Below, one piece after another: positions 3,273 through 39,374 of a stretch of 39,374 nucleotides of DNA (position 1 is the stretch's first letter; the number at the start of each line of letters is the position of its first letter). The stretch is from an uncultured SAR86 cluster bacterium. Its GTDB lineage: Bacteria > Pseudomonadota > Gammaproteobacteria > Magnimaribacterales > D2472. The notes below the pieces were generated by a model. That model saw only the letters and a program-made list of their open reading frames with translations. It was not told the DNA's origin and made no database searches. The stretch is from contig CACECK010000007.1 in assembly GCA_902557965.1 (NCBI GenBank), forward strand, positions 1 through 39,374. Direction: 5' to 3'. A program made the translations under genes and the position numbers.

Positions 3273-5102
3273 CTAAAAATTACAATCTATATTTAGGACA
3301 GAAAAAAAATAATTACTTGTTTCGTTTTGATTATTTTCCCACCCAGCATCGGTTACTGATACAAAATCGATACATCCTTCATCATCAATATTTAGTGGTA
3401 ATGCCTTCATTAAAAAATCATAGTTGTTATAACCAGGATCAGGTTTATTTGGAAGTTCATCATTATTTAAGGAAATAAAATTACCATTTCCATCATTCAT
3501 AGCAATATGTGATCCATGATATCCACTACTATAGTCTCTAGTAGAATGAATTATGTCCAAATTACCATCAAGATTCATGTCTCTCAAATAAATATTACCT
3601 TCGCCATGATGGCTATTAGATCGAGGTTGGTCAGAGAAATTTGAGTTGGTAACATCAACCAAATTTCCAAAGCCATCATTAATTAAAATTTGAATATACG
3701 CTCCCTCGTAATATGGTAAATCTCTAGTTATAGAAACAACGACATCATTAAAGCCATCGTTATTTAAATCACCAGAAGCAGCATGATTATATTTATTATG
3801 ATCAAAGCCAAATGGACCTGCTGGTAATATTACTAGATCCCATAATGAAATGTCCGCAGAGTTATTGCTTAATAAAATATATCCTTCTTGAGCACTTGAC
3901 CAGTTACTTCTGTTATCAAAATTCCAAAATAGAATGTCATCATAATTATCATTATTTAGATCGACCATCAGTGAAGACATTGGATTGCCATAATGATTGT
4001 TTCTTTGCCATTCAAGATTAATATAATCATGCATGTTGAAGTTACCCAAACCATCATTAATATTTAAAATATTACAAGCAAAAATATCTATATCACCATC
4101 GCCATCAGGATCACCTGAGCTGGCATCATGTGCAAAATTACATAATTGGCCTTCGCCATTATTTTGATCTTCAATTTGTGAGGACGCATCAACAAATTTT
4201 CCATCTTGATTCGATAATAGAAGCAGGTGCGGATATGGATTAATAAAATTTTTTGTATAATCTTCTGATCTGTATTGAATGCCCATTGAGCCTGCAAAAA
4301 TATCATCGACACCATCTCCATTAAAATCAGCTGCAATAGTTCTGTAAGCAAATGGATGGTTTGTTGGAGTTCCAGACTGATAAATATCTAAATTTTCCAT
4401 TAGCCTCCCGTTACCATCATTGAGGTATATATTTATAGGAGCATTAACTTTTTGTGACGGTTCTATTGTGTGGGGAAAGTATGCCCAAGCAACAGCGAAA
4501 TCTTCGAAACCGTCTCCATTAAAATCACCTTGCACCATGTTATGAGCATCTTGTCCAAATAATTCATTTTCGTAATACACACAGTCATTTGGCGTTGGGT
4601 AGCAAATTGTTGCAGAAAATCTATCTTTTATAATGATTCCGTCAAAACCAATATCTGCAACTTTGTATAAATTACTTTCAAGATCACCGATATTTGTTGG
4701 CACAAGAGAATACTTGGTTTCAAATTTATTAACTAATAGTGGAATGGTTTTTGATGCACCAGGGCATATTGGTGTTGAAATAGTTTCCACAACCATTTGA
4801 AAATTATTATTTTTGTCATAAACAATTGGATTTCTAAAATTAAAGTTTTTATTATCTGTAGAGCTAATGTGATACAAATTGTTATTGTTATCATCTAAAA
4901 AAATGCTATAAGTGCAATCAAGATTATCTGAAGAAATATTTATTGTTTGTCTTTGATAGCTAGTGCTAGGATTTATTAATCCGCTAATGTTTATTGAAAG
5001 TGGTTGAGAGCTGTTTTGATTTAAGTCTCCAGTTGATCCACCACCACATGAAAATAATACAAATGCAAAAAAAATAATATTTAAATTTCTTTTATATATC
5101 AT
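3273..5102 (-). CDS. FG-GAP/VCBS-repeat beta-propeller surface lipoprotein
   Basis: A 609-residue secreted lipoprotein of unknown specific role. The N-terminus is a lipoprotein signal with lipobox LFSC (Cys19), followed by Gly-Gly-Gly-Ser. From about residue 190 there are repeats with the FG-GAP calcium-loop pattern D-x-N-x-D-G-x-x-D: GDFNGDGFEDFAVAW, ADFNGDGVDDIFAGS, GDPDGDGDIDIFACN, VDLNNDNYDDILFWN, GDLNNDGFNDVVVSI, RDMNLDGNLDIIHST, and a weaker seventh near NIDDEGCIDFVSV. Spacing of about 50-75 residues suggests a seven-bladed integrin-alpha-like propeller that binds calcium. Such proteins usually act in adhesion or ligand binding, but no partner is visible. It diverges from the cupredoxin lipoprotein and ends 2 nt from the tRNA-Leu. 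Confidence 0.85.
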   Translation of the reverse strand: MIYKRNLNIIFFAFVLFSCGGGSTGDLNQNSSQPLSINISGLINPSTSYQRQTINISSDNLDCTYSIFLDDNNNNLYHISSTDNKNFNFRNPIVYDKNNNFQMVVETISTPICPGASKTIPLLVNKFETKYSLVPTNIGDLESNLYKVADIGFDGIIIKDRFSATICYPTPNDCVYYENELFGQDAHNMVQGDFNGDGFEDFAVAWAYFPHTIEPSQKVNAPINIYLNDGNGRLMENLDIYQSGTPTNHPFAYRTIAADFNGDGVDDIFAGSMGIQYRSEDYTKNFINPYPHLLLLSNQDGKFVDASSQIEDQNNGEGQLCNFAHDASSGDPDGDGDIDIFACNILNINDGLGNFNMHDYINLEWQRNNHYGNPMSSLMVDLNNDNYDDILFWNFDNRSNWSSAQEGYILLSNNSADISLWDLVILPAGPFGFDHNKYNHAASGDLNNDGFNDVVVSITRDLPYYEGAYIQILINDGFGNLVDVTNSNFSDQPRSNSHHGEGNIYLRDMNLDGNLDIIHSTRDYSSGYHGSHIAMNDGNGNFISLNNDELPNKPDPGYNNYDFLMKALPLNIDDEGCIDFVSVTDAGWENNQNETSNYFFSVLNIDCNF

Positions 5103-5365
5103 TTATAAAATTATACAAATATATAGAAGCTATATAATTTTTTCTTACACATAATATTAGCTTGAACACATTGATATGTAGTGAAACTACAATAATATGT
5201 AGCTGTATGTATTGATTTAATAGTAAATAATAAATATTTGACTGTTTATATAACTTTTTTGTTTAATTCACTACAAGCCATTTTGTTGCAGTCTTAATAT
5301 ACTTGGGCACTAGTATTTTTTTACAAACTGCAAACCCACCGGCATTTAATCTTAACGGAGAATAT
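5103..5365. other. Divergent intergenic region between two lipoprotein genes
   Basis: A very AT-rich spacer of 263 nt that must hold both promoters. The only clear structure is a small inverted repeat, TGTAGT-gaa-ACTACA at 5177-5191, which could be an operator or a weak hairpin. A ribosome-binding site (ACGGAG, about 5355-5360) precedes the plus-strand ATG at 5366. No reliable -35/-10 pair was recognised. Confidence 0.4.
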
Positions 5366-7273
5366 ATGAACACTTCAAACAGGGTAGTTCTATTGACAAG
5401 TATCTTCATCATCGTCTCATGTGGCGGAGGTGGTGGCGGTGGCGGTAGCAGCGACGATGGTAGTGGCGGCGGCTATGGTAATACAAATAGAACACCAACA
5501 ATAACAAACACAACTACAAGCTTTTCTGTTATGGAAAATCAAACAGCTGCATTTACAATTACAGCAACTGATCCTGATATGGATAGCCTAACCTACTCAT
5601 TAGCTGGAAATGATGGAGGTATTTTTTCTGTATCTTCAAGCGGTGTTGTAACTTTTAATACCGCACCGGATTATGAAAATCCAACAGATTCAGATACAAA
5701 TAATGTATACGAAGTAACTGGAAGAGTATCTGATGGTTCTCTCACGGCTACAAGAGATTTTACAGTAACCGTTACAAATGATACCTCTGATGATGTAACT
5801 ACTGAAGGTATGGATGGAACACTTTTAGGTGCAGGACCAATACAAAGTGCAACAGTTTGCATAGAGGTTACTTCAGGAACATGCAGTGGAGCAAGTTTTA
5901 CTTCAACGACTGCACAAGATGGAACTTTTTCTTTAACAATTGACTCAGGGACGACTGGAGTATTGCGTGGTGAAGGTGGATTTGACCCTGTTACTAATCT
6001 TCAATTTAGTGATAGTTTTAGTTTGTCCCTTGGTCAACCTGTTACAGATCAAAATTTTGTTGTCACGCCATTGAGTTCAATCATGAATGATTACGACAAC
6101 AGCACTCAATATAACACTTTCAAGGAAAAACTTGGTTTGAGCTCTGAATACATGATCAGATACAACAACCCATTTGCTAGCCTGGGTACCTCAGCACAAA
6201 ATAAAGCCGCTGTGGTTAATACTCAAATATTGGTGATGTTGGAGGTTTTAAATAATATACATACATTTTCTGGAGATAACGCTGGTAATAAACTTGCTGC
6301 AGCTATTTATAATAGGTCTGGAAGTGAGACCTCTTTAGGAGACACCACTTTTATTAAAAATACCCTTTCTAACTTAGATACTGATTTTTCCCCCTCTAGT
6401 GATCAACTAGTAAGTCTTTCAGCTGGCATATCAGCTTATATGCAAAAAATAAATGCAAATGATTCCTCTAACTCCCACTCGCATTTTGCAAAAGCTGGTA
6501 TGTCAGAGCTTAAAGATTTAATGAAAAAAGTAATGGATGGAACATCTACTTCTACTGAGATTGATAAGCTCACTTTTAATACTATTGATTGGATTAACGA
6601 AAATACCTCTTGGGATGGAGGCACCATAACAGACAACGAAGCAGAGATTTCTAATACAACATATAAACTTACACATAGTGGAAGTTCTTATTACAGTGTT
6701 GATAATGTCAACGCTAAAGATACTGAGTTTATTATCTATGTAAAAGAAGGTGATGTAATTAAATTTGATCCAACTAGCACAGTAACATCTAATCACCCTT
6801 TCCTTTTATCAACAGAAGTTAACGATATGGATAGTAGTGCAGACATTGGTACTGCTGAGGGATGGGATGCCGGTACATTAACTCTAACGGTTAGCTCAGA
6901 TACACCTGAGGTCTTATATCCACATTGTGAGTTTCATAGCGGTATGTACACCAAAGGGAAAATAGTGAAGGTAGCATCTTATGATATGACTAACATTGAT
7001 ATAACAAATGCCACTACTGCTATGCAAGTAAAAGGCACTGTATCTAAAGGCCCTTTTAAAGGAGCATCAGGCTATACCTATAAAGTATATCTAACTTCCC
7101 AAGGTGGTTCAGAACACACACATGAATTCTATGAATATCCAGGATTAACTTTTTATATGCCTGCTGATCAAGGATATCACGGGGCTGCTTCTGCTACTGA
7201 TGACAGAATGTTTAAGCCTAAATCACATTATGCATCCTCTGATGGTGGTAGTAATGATGATAGCGGATACTAA
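5366..7273 (+). CDS. Cadherin-like/cupredoxin surface lipoprotein
   Basis: A 635-residue secreted lipoprotein. The start at ATG 5366 is chosen over an upstream in-frame start at 5303 because a good ribosome-binding site (ACGGAG) lies 5 nt before it and it begins the signal peptide directly. The lipobox ends at IVSC (Cys19), followed by eight glycines and a Ser/Asp/Gly linker. Residues ~43-140 look like a cadherin/VCBS beta domain (PDMDSLTYSLAGNDGG, APDYENP). Next come a beta domain resembling carboxypeptidase-regulatory folds (QDGTFSLTIDSG), a helical stretch, and a cupredoxin-like domain at ~435-535 with His477 (SNHPFLLS) and Cys521-x2-His524-x2-Met527 (YPHCEFHSGMYTKGKI), the ligand spacing of amicyanin. 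A His-rich C-terminal module follows (EHTHEFYEYPGLTFYMP). Base composition looks more GC-rich than the neighbours. Copper binding or electron transfer is inferred; no partner is known. Confidence 0.82.
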   Translation: MNTSNRVVLLTSIFIIVSCGGGGGGGGSSDDGSGGGYGNTNRTPTITNTTTSFSVMENQTAAFTITATDPDMDSLTYSLAGNDGGIFSVSSSGVVTFNTAPDYENPTDSDTNNVYEVTGRVSDGSLTATRDFTVTVTNDTSDDVTTEGMDGTLLGAGPIQSATVCIEVTSGTCSGASFTSTTAQDGTFSLTIDSGTTGVLRGEGGFDPVTNLQFSDSFSLSLGQPVTDQNFVVTPLSSIMNDYDNSTQYNTFKEKLGLSSEYMIRYNNPFASLGTSAQNKAAVVNTQILVMLEVLNNIHTFSGDNAGNKLAAAIYNRSGSETSLGDTTFIKNTLSNLDTDFSPSSDQLVSLSAGISAYMQKINANDSSNSHSHFAKAGMSELKDLMKKVMDGTSTSTEIDKLTFNTIDWINENTSWDGGTITDNEAEISNTTYKLTHSGSSYYSVDNVNAKDTEFIIYVKEGDVIKFDPTSTVTSNHPFLLSTEVNDMDSSADIGTAEGWDAGTLTLTVSSDTPEVLYPHCEFHSGMYTKGKIVKVASYDMTNIDITNATTAMQVKGTVSKGPFKGASGYTYKVYLTSQGGSEHTHEFYEYPGLTFYMPADQGYHGAASATDDRMFKPKSHYASSDGGSNDDSGY

Positions 7274-17256: not shown

Positions 17257-17937
17257 TTAATTGATTGAGTTAGCAATTTCTATGGCAGAGGATGCTGATA
17301 AATTACCATATAAAGTTACAACCCTTCCATTAGATATTGGCACTATATATATCATTTTATTTCCATGCTTCCAGTATCTTATTTTTTTAAGGCCAAAGTT
17401 TTTATTTTCAATGCGTAATTGAAACTTTTCATTACCATTAGAATAACCTACGTTTCCTGCTCTGCCCGCTGCATAGCCAACATTTTTTAAATCAATAGTG
17501 TTTGAATTCATGAATGAAGGGTCGTTTATAACGCTCATAATATGATCAACGAGATATTCATCTGAGTTAGAAATTATTTCTTTTGCTTCTCTGCTGCTGA
17601 CTGCTGATGCAATTTTATTGGTTGAATCAACACTAATGCTCATTCGAGAAAAATCTGCATAGTTAACAACAAATAATGTCAAAATAATTGATGCTGCTGC
17701 AGTTAATGTGTTAGAAAACCATATATTTGTAAAAATATTTTTATTCTTTTCTATCTTGAAGTCATTAATATCAGTTACTTTATTTTCATTTGCTAATGAA
17801 AGTCCTATTAAGCTATATAGTGATAGGGTTTTCTGAAGATTATTGTCTGCCTCTAGTTCTTCTAAAACAGAGTCAATGTCATTGCTGTCGAGCTCTCCAT
17901 CATAAAGAGCAGACAATCTTTCTTTTATATCACTCAT
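17257..17937 (-). CDS. rseA: Anti-sigma-E factor RseA/MucA family
   Basis: RseA holds sigma-E at the inner membrane until DegS/RseP proteolysis releases it. The 226-residue product has the cytoplasmic RseA domain (SDIKERLSALYDGELDSNDI, then a helical part to ~70), one membrane helix at about 77-95 (NTLTAAASIILTLFVVNYAD) and a periplasmic tail of about 130 residues. The last ~55 residues (KFQLRIENKN, IYIVPISNGRVVTLYGNLSA, AIEIANSIN) do not look like ordinary RseA and recall the C-terminal strand-helix of RseB/MucB. No separate rseB follows; the protease comes next. It overlaps rpoE by 8 nt. Confidence 0.83.
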   Translation of the reverse strand: MSDIKERLSALYDGELDSNDIDSVLEELEADNNLQKTLSLYSLIGLSLANENKVTDINDFKIEKNKNIFTNIWFSNTLTAAASIILTLFVVNYADFSRMSISVDSTNKIASAVSSREAKEIISNSDEYLVDHIMSVINDPSFMNSNTIDLKNVGYAAGRAGNVGYSNGNEKFQLRIENKNFGLKKIRYWKHGNKMIYIVPISNGRVVTLYGNLSASSAIEIANSIN

Positions 17938-36286: not shown

Positions 36287-37177
36287 TTAACCCCTTGGAT
36301 GATGTTTTTTTAAAACTTCTCCAAGTCTTTGTTTAGCAATGTGAGTATATATTTGAGTAGTCGATAAGTCACTATGGCCGAGTAATAACTGAACTGATCT
36401 TAAGTCTGCGCCTCTATTTAGCAAATGAGTTGCAAAAGCATGTCTAAGGGTGTGAGGAGAAATGGAATCTTGAAGACCTTCCCTTGATAGATAGATCTTT
36501 ATCCTTTGCCAAAAACCTGTTCTTGTCATTTTTCTTCCTCTATTTGATATAAAAACTTCTTTAGCTAAAGACTTCTTTCTTTTTTTAAGGTAATAACTTA
36601 ATGAATCTGACGCTTTTTCTCCAAAAGGAATTAGTCTTTCTTTGGATCCTTTTCCTAGGACTTTTAAAACTGATCTCTCTATATCTATATCTGTTATTTT
36701 TAAATTTATTAACTCCGATATTCTCATTCCAGTTGCATAAAGCATTTCAATCATTGCTTTATCTCGAGTTTCAATATCCAATTCAATGTTTGGGCTTTGC
36801 AAAAGACGTTCAACCTCATCTTCAGACATTGATGAAGGCAAATATTGTTCTTTTTTTGGAGTTATTATTTCAGATAAAGGAGATGAGGATATAACCTTTT
36901 TTTTAATCAAGAATAAATAAAATGATTTAAGGCTTGATATTTTTCTATTTACTGATGAACTTTTGAGACCATTCTTGAAAAGATGAGCGACATATTCATT
37001 AATTGATGCCTCAGAAATATTTTTATAATCTTGTATATCTAGTTTATTTAACCAAGAAAGAAAATTATTTAAATCATTACTATATGCTTCAATAGTGTTT
37101 TTTGATAAGCCTTTCTCAACATATAGGAAAGTAAAAAAAGATCCTAGATTATGATCTTCTTTATACATATGATGCAT
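36287..37177 (-). CDS. xerD: Tyrosine recombinase XerD
   Basis: XerD resolves chromosome dimers at dif together with XerC and FtsK. The 296-residue product has the N-terminal SAM-like core-binding domain (FLYVEKGLSKNTIEAYSNDL) and the catalytic tetrad Arg (YATGMRISELINL), His-x-x-Arg (SPHTLRHAFATHLLNRGADL), His in LLGHSDLST and Tyr in TQIYTHIAKQRL. Housekeeping length and the rplS-xerD-dsbC order argue against a phage integrase. ATG 37177 is used; ATG at 37168 is an alternative. Confidence 0.96.
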   Translation of the reverse strand: MHHMYKEDHNLGSFFTFLYVEKGLSKNTIEAYSNDLNNFLSWLNKLDIQDYKNISEASINEYVAHLFKNGLKSSSVNRKISSLKSFYLFLIKKKVISSSPLSEIITPKKEQYLPSSMSEDEVERLLQSPNIELDIETRDKAMIEMLYATGMRISELINLKITDIDIERSVLKVLGKGSKERLIPFGEKASDSLSYYLKKRKKSLAKEVFISNRGRKMTRTGFWQRIKIYLSREGLQDSISPHTLRHAFATHLLNRGADLRSVQLLLGHSDLSTTQIYTHIAKQRLGEVLKKHHPRG

Positions 37178-37181
37178 TATA

Positions 37182-38102
37182 TTATTCTAATCTTTCTTTA
37201 ATCCTTGCAGATTTTCCAGATCTCTCTCTCAAATAGAAAAGCTTTGCCTGACGTACATCACCTTTTCTTTTTACTTTAATTGAATCAATCATTGGGCTGT
37301 GAGTTTGAAATGTTCTTTCAACACCAATACCACTTGAAATCTTTCTGACAATAAATGAAGAGTTAAGTCCAGCTTTTTTGACGCCCATGACAACACCTTC
37401 AAATGCTTGGAGCCTGGTTCTTTCTCCCTCTCTTACTTTTACAGATACTATTACAGTGTCTCCTGGTCGAAATTCAGGAATATCGTTCTTTAATTGTTGA
37501 TTTTCAAAATTGCTAATTATTTGAGATGGTGTTTTTTCTTCAAGTGAAACTTTAACTTCCTCTTCAGCTGGAGCTTCTTCTACTGGAGCTGCTTCTTCTG
37601 CAGGTGCTTCTTCTGCTGGAGCTTCTTCTGCTGGAGCTGCTTCCTCAGCTGGAGCTTCTTCTGTTAGTGTTTCCTCTGCAGCTGCTTCTTCTACAGGTGC
37701 TTCTTCAGCTGGTGTTTCTTCTGGAGCTGCTTCTTCTGCAGGTGCTTCTTCTACTGGAGCTGCTTCTTCTGCAGGTGCTTCTTCTTCTATTGGAGCTTCG
37801 GCAGCTGCTTCAGCCATAGCTGTAGCTGCATCATCTACTGCACTAGGTGATGATTGATTAAAGTGAAGATCCCATGCCTCTAATAGATTAGCTTTTGTTA
37901 AACTGATATCAAGATCTAGGCCATTTTCTTTAGCAACATTTACTATATCTGCTTTCTTCATCTTACTTAAAGATGATTTAGTTGGAATTTCAGAAGGCTC
38001 CTGGGGGCTGATTACCTCATTTTTTACTTCTTCAGGCGGAGACGAGCCACCAAAAATTCTGGAAAAAAAACCTTTTTTCTTGTTATCTTTGTTATCACTC
38101 AT
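37182..38102 (-). CDS. rplS: 50S ribosomal protein L19 with Rho-N/SAP-like and Glu/Ala/Pro-repeat extension
   Basis: L19 sits at the 30S-50S interface and is normally about 115-125 residues. This frame encodes 306. Residues ~192-306 are full L19 ([76 protein letters not shown]). Before it are: a basic tract and GFFSRIFGG (residues 8-19); a helical module at ~43-78 ([18 protein letters not shown], then [10 protein letters not shown]) resembling Rho-N/HeH/SAP nucleic-acid-binding folds; and a low-complexity Glu/Ala/Pro tract at ~92-182 ([18 protein letters not shown] repeats). The usual L19 start is replaced by [10 protein letters not shown] with no Met, so the extension is a real fusion in one frame. 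It lies 19 nt downstream of trmD in the conserved rpsP-rimM-trmD-rplS operon. Confidence 0.95.
37557..37829 (-). repeat. Imperfect tandem repeat encoding Glu/Ala/Pro tract in rplS
   Basis: About 270 nt of degenerate 12-18-nt units; read on the minus strand they encode variants of A-P-A-E-E and A-A-P-V-E-E. On the plus strand the units read like GCTTCTTCTGCAGGT or GCTTCTTCTGCTGGAGCT. Codons vary between units (GCA/GCT/GCC, GAA/GAG), so the repeats are not freshly duplicated, but unit number could still change by slippage. Confidence 0.85.
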
Positions 38103-38121: not shown

Positions 38122-38853
38122 CTATAGGATAGCCTTAGATGCCCATTCTTCCAAGAGTTTTTTTTGTTTTTTTGTTAATTTTATATCTTTTAATAAATCA
38201 GGTCTTTTAGTAAAAGTTTTTAATAAAGAATTTTCTTTTTTCCATTGCTCAATTTTCTTATGATTTCCGGACAAAAGTACCTCTGGAACCTGCATTGAAT
38301 CAAAGTTTTCTGGTTTTGTATAAACGTCACCCTTCAATAAACCATTTGAAAAAGTATCTTTCAAATAAGAATCCTTATTTCCCAAGGTTCCTGGAATATG
38401 TCTTGAAATAGCATCGATTAAACATATTGCGGCATACTCACCACCACTTAATACAAAATCACCGACTGAGATCTCCTCGTCTACATATTTATCAATTACT
38501 CTTTGATCAATGCCTTCATACCTTCCACAAATAATTGTTATGTTCTTCAATTTTGAAAGAGAAATTACTTTATTTTGGTTAAGTCTCTCTCCTTGGGGGG
38601 ACATAAATAAAACTTTACCAAGTTTCTTTTGATCAATTTGTTTCAGGGTTTTAACAATTGGTTCTGCGCTCATAACCATTCCCTCTCCACCCCCATATGG
38701 TTTTGAATCTATATGATTGTGCTTATTAGATGCGTTTTTTCTAATATCTAAAGCATCAAAAGATATGATTTTGTTTTTAATGGCTTTCGATAAAACGCCT
38801 GAATTTAAAACTTCAAATATTTCAGGAAAAATAGTTAATATATTAATATTCAT
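38122..38853 (-). CDS. trmD: tRNA (guanine37-N1)-methyltransferase
   Basis: TrmD places m1G37 in tRNAs with G36, guarding against frameshifting. From ATG 38853 the product has 243 residues and begins MNINILTIFPEIFEVLNSGV, the family N-terminus; an upstream start at 38868 would add five residues and overlap rimM. The trefoil-knot SAM site is visible (LFMSPQGERLNQ, IICGRYEGIDQRVIDKYVDE, ISVGDFVLSGGEYA), with the later TKPENFDSMQVPEVLLSGNH that contains the catalytic-loop region. Confidence 0.97.
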   Translation of the reverse strand: MNINILTIFPEIFEVLNSGVLSKAIKNKIISFDALDIRKNASNKHNHIDSKPYGGGEGMVMSAEPIVKTLKQIDQKKLGKVLFMSPQGERLNQNKVISLSKLKNITIICGRYEGIDQRVIDKYVDEEISVGDFVLSGGEYAAICLIDAISRHIPGTLGNKDSYLKDTFSNGLLKGDVYTKPENFDSMQVPEVLLSGNHKKIEQWKKENSLLKTFTKRPDLLKDIKLTKKQKKLLEEWASKAIL

Positions 38854-38857
38854 ATTT

Positions 38858-39374
38858 TTAATAATCACTTCGCCAATTTACTTTAATAACTTTTTTTTCA
38901 AAACTAACAGATTTTATAAATGTATCTTTTATGTATGGGATTAGTCTTTTTTCATTATCTATAGATTCAGAGGTAGGATTTACTAAAAGACAGTCATTTG
39001 CACCAAAATTATTAAGATCAACTACCGTACCTAATATATTACTTTCGTTAACATCTATAACTAACATTCCTATTAACTCATTCCAATAAACTTCATCATC
39101 TAATAGTTCTGGTAAATCTTCTTGGAGAATATAAATTTTTTCATTTGTATATTCTTTGACTAACTCGACATCATTAATGCCTTCTATTTTTGCAATAAAT
39201 TTAGAATTATTAGTTTTTATATATTTAAGCTGAATTCTACTATTATCTTCTAATCTGACATTATCTATGTAGTTAATTATATTTTTTTCAGGTGAGCAAT
39301 ATGAATTAAGAAAAAATTCGCCCTTTAAACCCCTTGGTTTACCAATTGATCCAATGCAAGTATTCTTATTTTTC
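38858..39374 (-). CDS. rimM: Ribosome maturation factor RimM (partial, N-terminus off the window)
   Basis: RimM binds S19 and helps mature the 30S head. The open frame runs from the right edge to TAA at 38858. Near the edge it reads CIGSIGKPRGLKGEFFLNSY, the conserved start of RimM, so only about the first five residues are missing. The C-terminal PRC-barrel shows VYWNELIGMLVIDVN, ILGTVVDLNNFGANDCLLV and a final RLIPYIKDTF segment. An internal ATG at 39067 is not the start because the conserved N-terminal domain lies upstream. It precedes trmD by 4 nt. Confidence 0.93.
   Translation of the reverse strand, partial: KNKNTCIGSIGKPRGLKGEFFLNSYCSPEKNIINYIDNVRLEDNSRIQLKYIKTNNSKFIAKIEGINDVELVKEYTNEKIYILQEDLPELLDDEVYWNELIGMLVIDVNESNILGTVVDLNNFGANDCLLVNPTSESIDNEKRLIPYIKDTFIKSVSFEKKVIKVNWRSDY

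Follow-up and report, generated by a model that had tools for sequence, protein, structure and literature searches.

Organization of the extended rplS locus

The analyzed window is a stretch of 39,374 nucleotides, contig CACECK010000007.1, from an uncultured SAR86 cluster bacterium whose source assembly (G000), 81.5% complete, comprises 22 contigs with a total of 1,051,093 bases. Close to one end of the window, on the reverse strand, lies rplS (37182..38102), encoding an extended ribosomal protein L19 of 306 amino acids in a single ATG-to-stop frame of 306 codons. On the same strand, trmD (38122..38868) lies immediately upstream, separated from rplS by 19 bases, and is preceded by rimM (38858..39373), which is truncated by the contig end. 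The next gene downstream encodes a XerD-like tyrosine recombinase (36287..37177, reverse strand); all three neighbors were named by reading. The S16 gene of the source genome was found at the end of a separate contig (G000:C14), and the available sequence of this genome contains a single L19 copy. Among 20 ORFs of the window scanned against NCBIfam, those at 3276-5102 (reverse), 5303-7270 (forward) and 17260-17937 (reverse), of 609, 656 and 226 amino acids, gave no match at E 1e-10, and Rfam gave no match in the window at gathering scores.

A Pfam scan of the 306-residue protein placed PF01245 over residues 195-304 with 157.7 bits (cut-off 22), and TIGR01024 scored 155.3 bits (cut-off 90.7), consistent with the initial annotation of L19 as the last part of one long frame. 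The protein resembles other bL19 members described by TIGR01024 in its complete core, its single copy and its position after rimM and trmD. However, the window's protein, which belongs to a SAR86 family called f1 here, differs in carrying an N-terminal extension of about 190 residues that replaces the normal start. The layout of the extension is the one first described. A basic and aromatic peptide containing GFFSRIFGG and resembling the membrane-binding motifs of FtsY (residues 1-20, 38043..38102; five Lys/Arg and two Asp/Glu) stands ahead of a Rho-N/SAP-like HeH module with the motifs KMKKADIV and LTK (residues 42-82, 37857..37979), which is nearly neutral, with five Lys/Arg and six Asp/Glu in residues 43-82. 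An acidic Glu/Ala/Pro spacer (residues 83-191, 37530..37856), whose 109 residues include 38 Asp/Glu, 2 Lys/Arg, 35 Ala and 14 Pro, then leads to the conserved L19 core (residues 192-306, 37185..37529), all on the reverse strand. Domain scans of the whole protein returned L19 and low-complexity matches only.

The natural L19 start had been reported as missing and not restored internally, and the distribution of start codons agrees with this. In-frame ATG, GTG or TTG codons occur at codons 1, 48, 96, 239, 271 and 291 only, with none from codon 97 to 238. No common start therefore lies where an ordinary L19 could begin, which rules out this possibility; ATT, a rare start, is present at codon 196.

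The fold of the extension was predicted with AlphaFold2 on a 32-row alignment (A2) of the window's protein and 31 of 33 loci from GTDB. The mean pLDDT was 71, rising to 87-89 over residues 41-80, and helices were predicted at residues 42-46, 50-59 and 70-82, the last two forming the two helices with an extended joint that define the HeH fold; residues 1-40 were of low confidence and non-helical. Foldseek returned no match to the predicted fold below E 0.39. A second structural comparison matched Rho chains with Z scores of 4.4-5.6 (best over 46 residues), EndoVII with 5.6-6.0 and the SAP domain of Tho1 with 4.6, values of a size that the comparison tool rates as middling, and an unrelated Mycoplasma G1-ATPase chain was tied for the top at Z 6.0. 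A profile of the arm searched against 177,635 distinct PDB sequences matched the SAP domain of Ku70 with E=0.0015 for the whole sequence. In single-sequence searches, the Pfam models Rho_N, SAP and HeH did not match the window's protein, and among the 32 members one showed a weak SAP match (E=0.12).

Taken together, the predicted fold, the Ku70 SAP profile match and the HeH pattern lead us to assign residues 42-82 as a predicted HeH domain like those of Rho-N and SAP proteins. A helical module of the Rho-N/HeH/SAP type had been proposed, with a structural match as the test set beforehand, and AlphaFold2 and the Z scores agree that residues 40-85 resemble those folds, although Foldseek alone gave the result stated above. 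The module shares with the Rho N-terminal HeH and the SAP domains of Ku70 and Tho1 a predicted helix-extension-helix of about 46 residues, superposed at an rmsd of about 2-2.5. However, it is only 9-14% identical to the Rho chains, has no curated Pfam match above chance and is joined to a ribosomal protein.

Conservation of the arm and occurrence of its modules elsewhere

In order to examine the arm in relatives, L19 loci were compared across four SAR86 families. Among 30 loci of family f1, the whole extended frame followed an upstream stop in 20, while in the other 10 the frame stayed open to the end of the available DNA, with the HeH module seen in one of these and absent from view in nine. 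Ordinary L19, which the initial annotation had named as the finding in close relatives that would speak against it, was found in none of the 30. The occurrence of the whole frame in 20 separate assemblies, one of them a single contig (G034), rules out an assembly artefact; the acidic tract seems to break assemblies. A protein match was obtained in 55 of 60 relatives, in two of them (G010 and G013) through the acidic tract only. Families f2-f4 yielded the L19 core in 23 of 24 genomes, as open frames of 116-138 amino acids in 22 and inside a 375-codon read-through frame with an internal stop in G038 (f4), and no arm match was found in these 23. The three other SAR86 families carry ordinary L19. 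In GTDB r220, 33 loci carried the arm, of which 32 were titled SAR86 (one as SAR86A) and one 'Gammaproteobacteria bacterium'. We infer that f1 corresponds to GTDB D2472, called 'Suzuki' in PMC11582366.

The KMKKADIV and LTK motifs are identical in 32/32 rows of A2, and GFF is nearly so; outside A2, the variants KLKKADIV (G034) and KMKKAEIV (G271) were observed. Across 25 sequences (300 pairs), simple pN/pS ratios for the peptide, the HeH module and the L19 core were 0.158, 0.247 and 0.138, respectively, values that are rough owing to highly diverged synonymous sites. On these ratios, the peptide and the HeH module are under purifying selection. In the same 25 sequences the spacer ranged from 37 to 170 amino acids (median 105), and its net charge was between -0.25 and -0.41 per residue in every one. 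The sequences thus show two modules under constraint and a spacer of variable length that stays acidic, and we interpret the extension as a flexible arm of the ribosome retained by selection.

The A2 profile was also searched in 61 SAR86 genomes, where the one good match outside L19 fell on ribosomal protein S2 of G038 (E=1.2e-5). Five further matches had E 0.02-0.25, and the four of these in G016, G037, G043 and G046 were read as antisense or unrelated frames, and hence neither as another copy of the arm nor as its source. A profile of the HeH module alone matched 55 of 203 genomes of the order, 44 of them at E 4.9e-14 or better; this listing leaves out 128 genomes without a match and hence gives no per-family rate. 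The strong matches comprised 42 in f1, spread over six genera, and two in f4, namely G038, which was in the training set of the profile, and G335, which was outside it. Those f1 matches that were read lie on L19, and both f4 matches lie on S2. The other 11 reached E 0.02-0.1 only, and the four of them that were read (G281, G285, G235 and G249) are other proteins, as is a weak second match in G005 (E 0.009). In the two S2 proteins (L180:1001-2038, reverse strand, and the S2 frame of L215), which were named by reading, a C-terminal charged linker is followed by the HeH module, and no GFF-type peptide was found. Within a single order, a small module of nucleic-acid type is thus attached both to L19 and to a different ribosomal protein, S2.

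The acidic tract likewise has a counterpart in the same operon. S16 (rpsP) carries an acidic Glu/Ala/Pro tail in all 13 readable genes from f1, f2 and f4, a count that leaves out the source S16, which is cut at the contig end, and an f3 locus in which no S16 was found by pattern (S16 frames in loci L032-L050; also G000:C14). The tail and the L19 spacer are tracts of the same kind, with DNA words in common in some genomes: the share of common 18-mers was 0.112 within genomes versus 0.028 between genomes (permutation p 0.003, n=8), with sharing in five of the eight genomes and none in three. This suggests exchange between the S16 and L19 genes or a common local bias. The S16 tail differs from the L19 arm in being C-terminal, in lacking, by reading, an HeH module or GFF peptide, and in its presence also in families with ordinary L19.

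Signal recognition particle components in SAR86

SAR86 bacteria are among the most abundant of the surface ocean, according to PMC11582366. The signal recognition particle (SRP) is described in PMC7844537 as conserved in all living organisms, and the same text reports its loss as survivable in yeast, Streptococcus mutans and Escherichia coli suppressors. The FtsY model TIGR00064 exceeded its cut-off of 260.7 bits in none of 60 SAR86 relatives, nor in the source genome; weak matches (E<=0.01) were present in 54 of the 60, the best at 24.2 bits. The SRP54 GTPase model PF00448 gave weak matches in three of the 60, one exactly at the cut-off, and none in the source genome. Six weak matches, three from each model, were read and rejected as SRP GTPases, being RecG-like (one), PriA-like (two), ABC ATPases (two, including the SRP54 match at the cut-off) and CobW-like (one), so that no SRP54 GTPase reading as such was found in the 61 SAR86 genomes. 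The bacterial 4.5S RNA (RF00169) was detected neither in the 60 relatives nor in the source genome. In controls, the FtsY and SRP54 models each detected 14/14, and RF00169, run with stricter filters, detected 11/14 (nine over the cut-off). Of the relatives, 23 are at least 90% complete with at most 5% contamination, and five are single contigs. These searches point to an apparent order-wide loss of SRP (Ffh, FtsY and 4.5S RNA) in SAR86, whereas Sec functions are kept: signal peptidase I is present, and YajC and SecD were named by reading at positions 3-1005 of the window. In the main text of PMC11582366, 'SRP' and 'signal recognition' have no occurrence, and a survey of titles and abstract openings, with most subscription journals outside its scope, returned no report of this L19 or of SRP loss in SAR86. 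How membrane proteins are targeted in a free-living, abundant order without SRP is the question that this raises.

Across the class, the FtsY model, which also catches weaker second matches of Ffh size, matched 132 of 140 genomes at E 1e-10. The eight unmatched genomes were two from SAR86 (G000 and G038) and six gammaproteobacteria from outside it that lacked an FtsY or Ffh match (G062, G064, G093, G100, G159 and G183; 1.1-3.2 Mb, 94-99% complete). L19 N-termini are ordinary in these six; the L19 of G100 (L157) has a C-terminal Ala/Glu-rich tail.

The arm was found in one family only, but none of the four SAR86 families sampled shows SRP. Since the SRP-less families f2-f4 have ordinary L19, and the six outsiders without FtsY/Ffh matches have ordinary N-termini, SRP can be lost without the arm being present, and an arm that simply follows SRP loss is ruled out. 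The loss of SRP must then predate the arm or be unconnected with it, which leaves the arm as at most a later addition of one family.

Candidate functions of the arm

The initial annotation had suggested that the extension tethers mRNA, nucleoid or membrane, or is cleaved off. Besides Ku70 SAP, the arm profile matched two E. coli FtsY chains in the PDB (5gad and 2yhs; E=1.3), along with BamC and a transposition protein. In FtsY the aligned stretches are residues 3-33 (E=13 when taken singly) and residues 187-209 (E=1300), and even over the whole sequence the alignment, at E=1.3, falls short of significance. A profile of the 22-residue peptide gave an internal stretch of BamC as its best solved match (E=3.2e-4), followed by the C-terminus of a Heimdallarchaeal gelsolin (0.041), alphaSNAP at FFSGLFGGSS (4.1) and FtsY residues 3-12 (4.4). 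The pattern G[FL]F[SAG]RL, chosen after comparing both proteins, was found upstream of the GTPase in 16 of 30 gammaproteobacterial FtsY sequences and in the first 100 residues of none of 481 other ORFs (at least 200 amino acids, L19 excluded), a background drawn from the ORFs of the fetched loci only. PMC5533587 describes FtsY as having a highly acidic A domain and two lipid-binding motifs, of which alphaA1 lies within the first 14 residues and alphaN1 next to Phe196. The two aligned stretches fall at the places given there for alphaA1 and alphaN1, with the acidic A domain between. The N-terminal loop of Sec17/alphaSNAP is reported in PMC5643095 to penetrate bilayers. The arm is like the FtsY A domain in having an N-terminal basic GFF-type peptide and a strongly acidic region. 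It differs in lacking the NG GTPase domain, the body being a ribosomal protein, and in the placement of an HeH module between peptide and spacer, with a match that is not significant alone.

The arm most likely serves as a flexible tether borne on the ribosome. Its first 20 or so residues may dock on the inner membrane in the way that FtsY does through the motif at the start of its A domain, while the HeH module probably grips RNA (mRNA or rRNA) and the acidic spacer would hold the arm extended, much as the acidic A domain of FtsY parts its anchor from the GTPase. In a lineage that has neither SRP nor the SRP receptor, such an arm could hold ribosomes close to the membrane while they translate. 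Taken by itself, membrane docking is plausible, at somewhat below even chances, while nucleic-acid contact by the HeH module is an evenly balanced proposition; the former draws on weak similarity and layout, the latter on a common small fold. We tentatively propose membrane docking as the principal role, whether or not the arm also contacts RNA. The membrane tether is favored because the peptide resembles FtsY and because SRP is apparently absent. Against it stand the non-significant FtsY alignment, a best match to BamC, which is not known as an inner-membrane anchor, the lack of a predicted helix in residues 1-20, an S2 version without the peptide and a shortest spacer of 37 residues. The position of L19, which is not at the ribosomal exit tunnel, also counts against docking.

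A just as tentative explanation dispenses with the membrane: the HeH module would capture mRNA, rRNA or DNA close to the ribosome as a purely RNA- or nucleoid-binding arm, and the peptide would add affinity or contact rRNA. RNA contact is favored because of the HeH fold, with its likeness to Rho N-terminal and SAP domains, and because S2, a protein located near the mRNA path of the ribosome, carries this module and not the peptide; the invariance of KMKKADIV throughout A2 also fits. However, constraint on the peptide, judged by pN/pS, is no weaker than that on the HeH module, the resemblances of the peptide are to membrane-associated proteins, and the module is nearly neutral in charge. An arm that instead docks on a protein, using the HeH module or the peptide to recruit an assembly factor, SecA, RNA polymerase or a degradation enzyme, appears improbable. 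Folds of this kind do bind proteins as well, and the C-terminal domain of CDNF with BiP is among the structural matches (9i5y, Z 3.7), but no partner was found and the locus holds no pointer to one. Least probable is a lineage-specific elongation of little function, in which recombination with the S16 tail spread the tract or keeps it similar and in which the front part is a tolerated fusion or is cleaved, which would account for the similar S16 tails, the within-genome 18-mer sharing and the variable spacer length but not for purifying selection on the peptide and HeH module or for strong HeH matches in six genera of f1 with genomes near 1 Mb.

Returning to the membrane tether, a functional link of the arm to SRP loss is unlikely on present evidence: a simple replacement of SRP is at odds with the SAR86 families that lack both SRP and the arm, and S. 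mutans and E. coli survive the loss without such an arm (PMC7844537). Slightly more doubtful still is the full scenario, in which, in an order without SRP, one family would have built an FtsY-type anchor into the ribosome through L19, holding ribosomes constitutively at the membrane for co-translational insertion without targeting GTPases. The arm offers a concrete candidate for membrane-protein targeting in one SAR86 family. The proposed contact is similar to that of membrane-associated mitochondrial ribosomes, in which Mba1 and the Oxa1 C-tail (PMC8321541) provide a ribosome-linked membrane contact instead of SRP. However, the proteins of that system are unrelated, and the tether proposed for SAR86 is part of a ribosomal protein.
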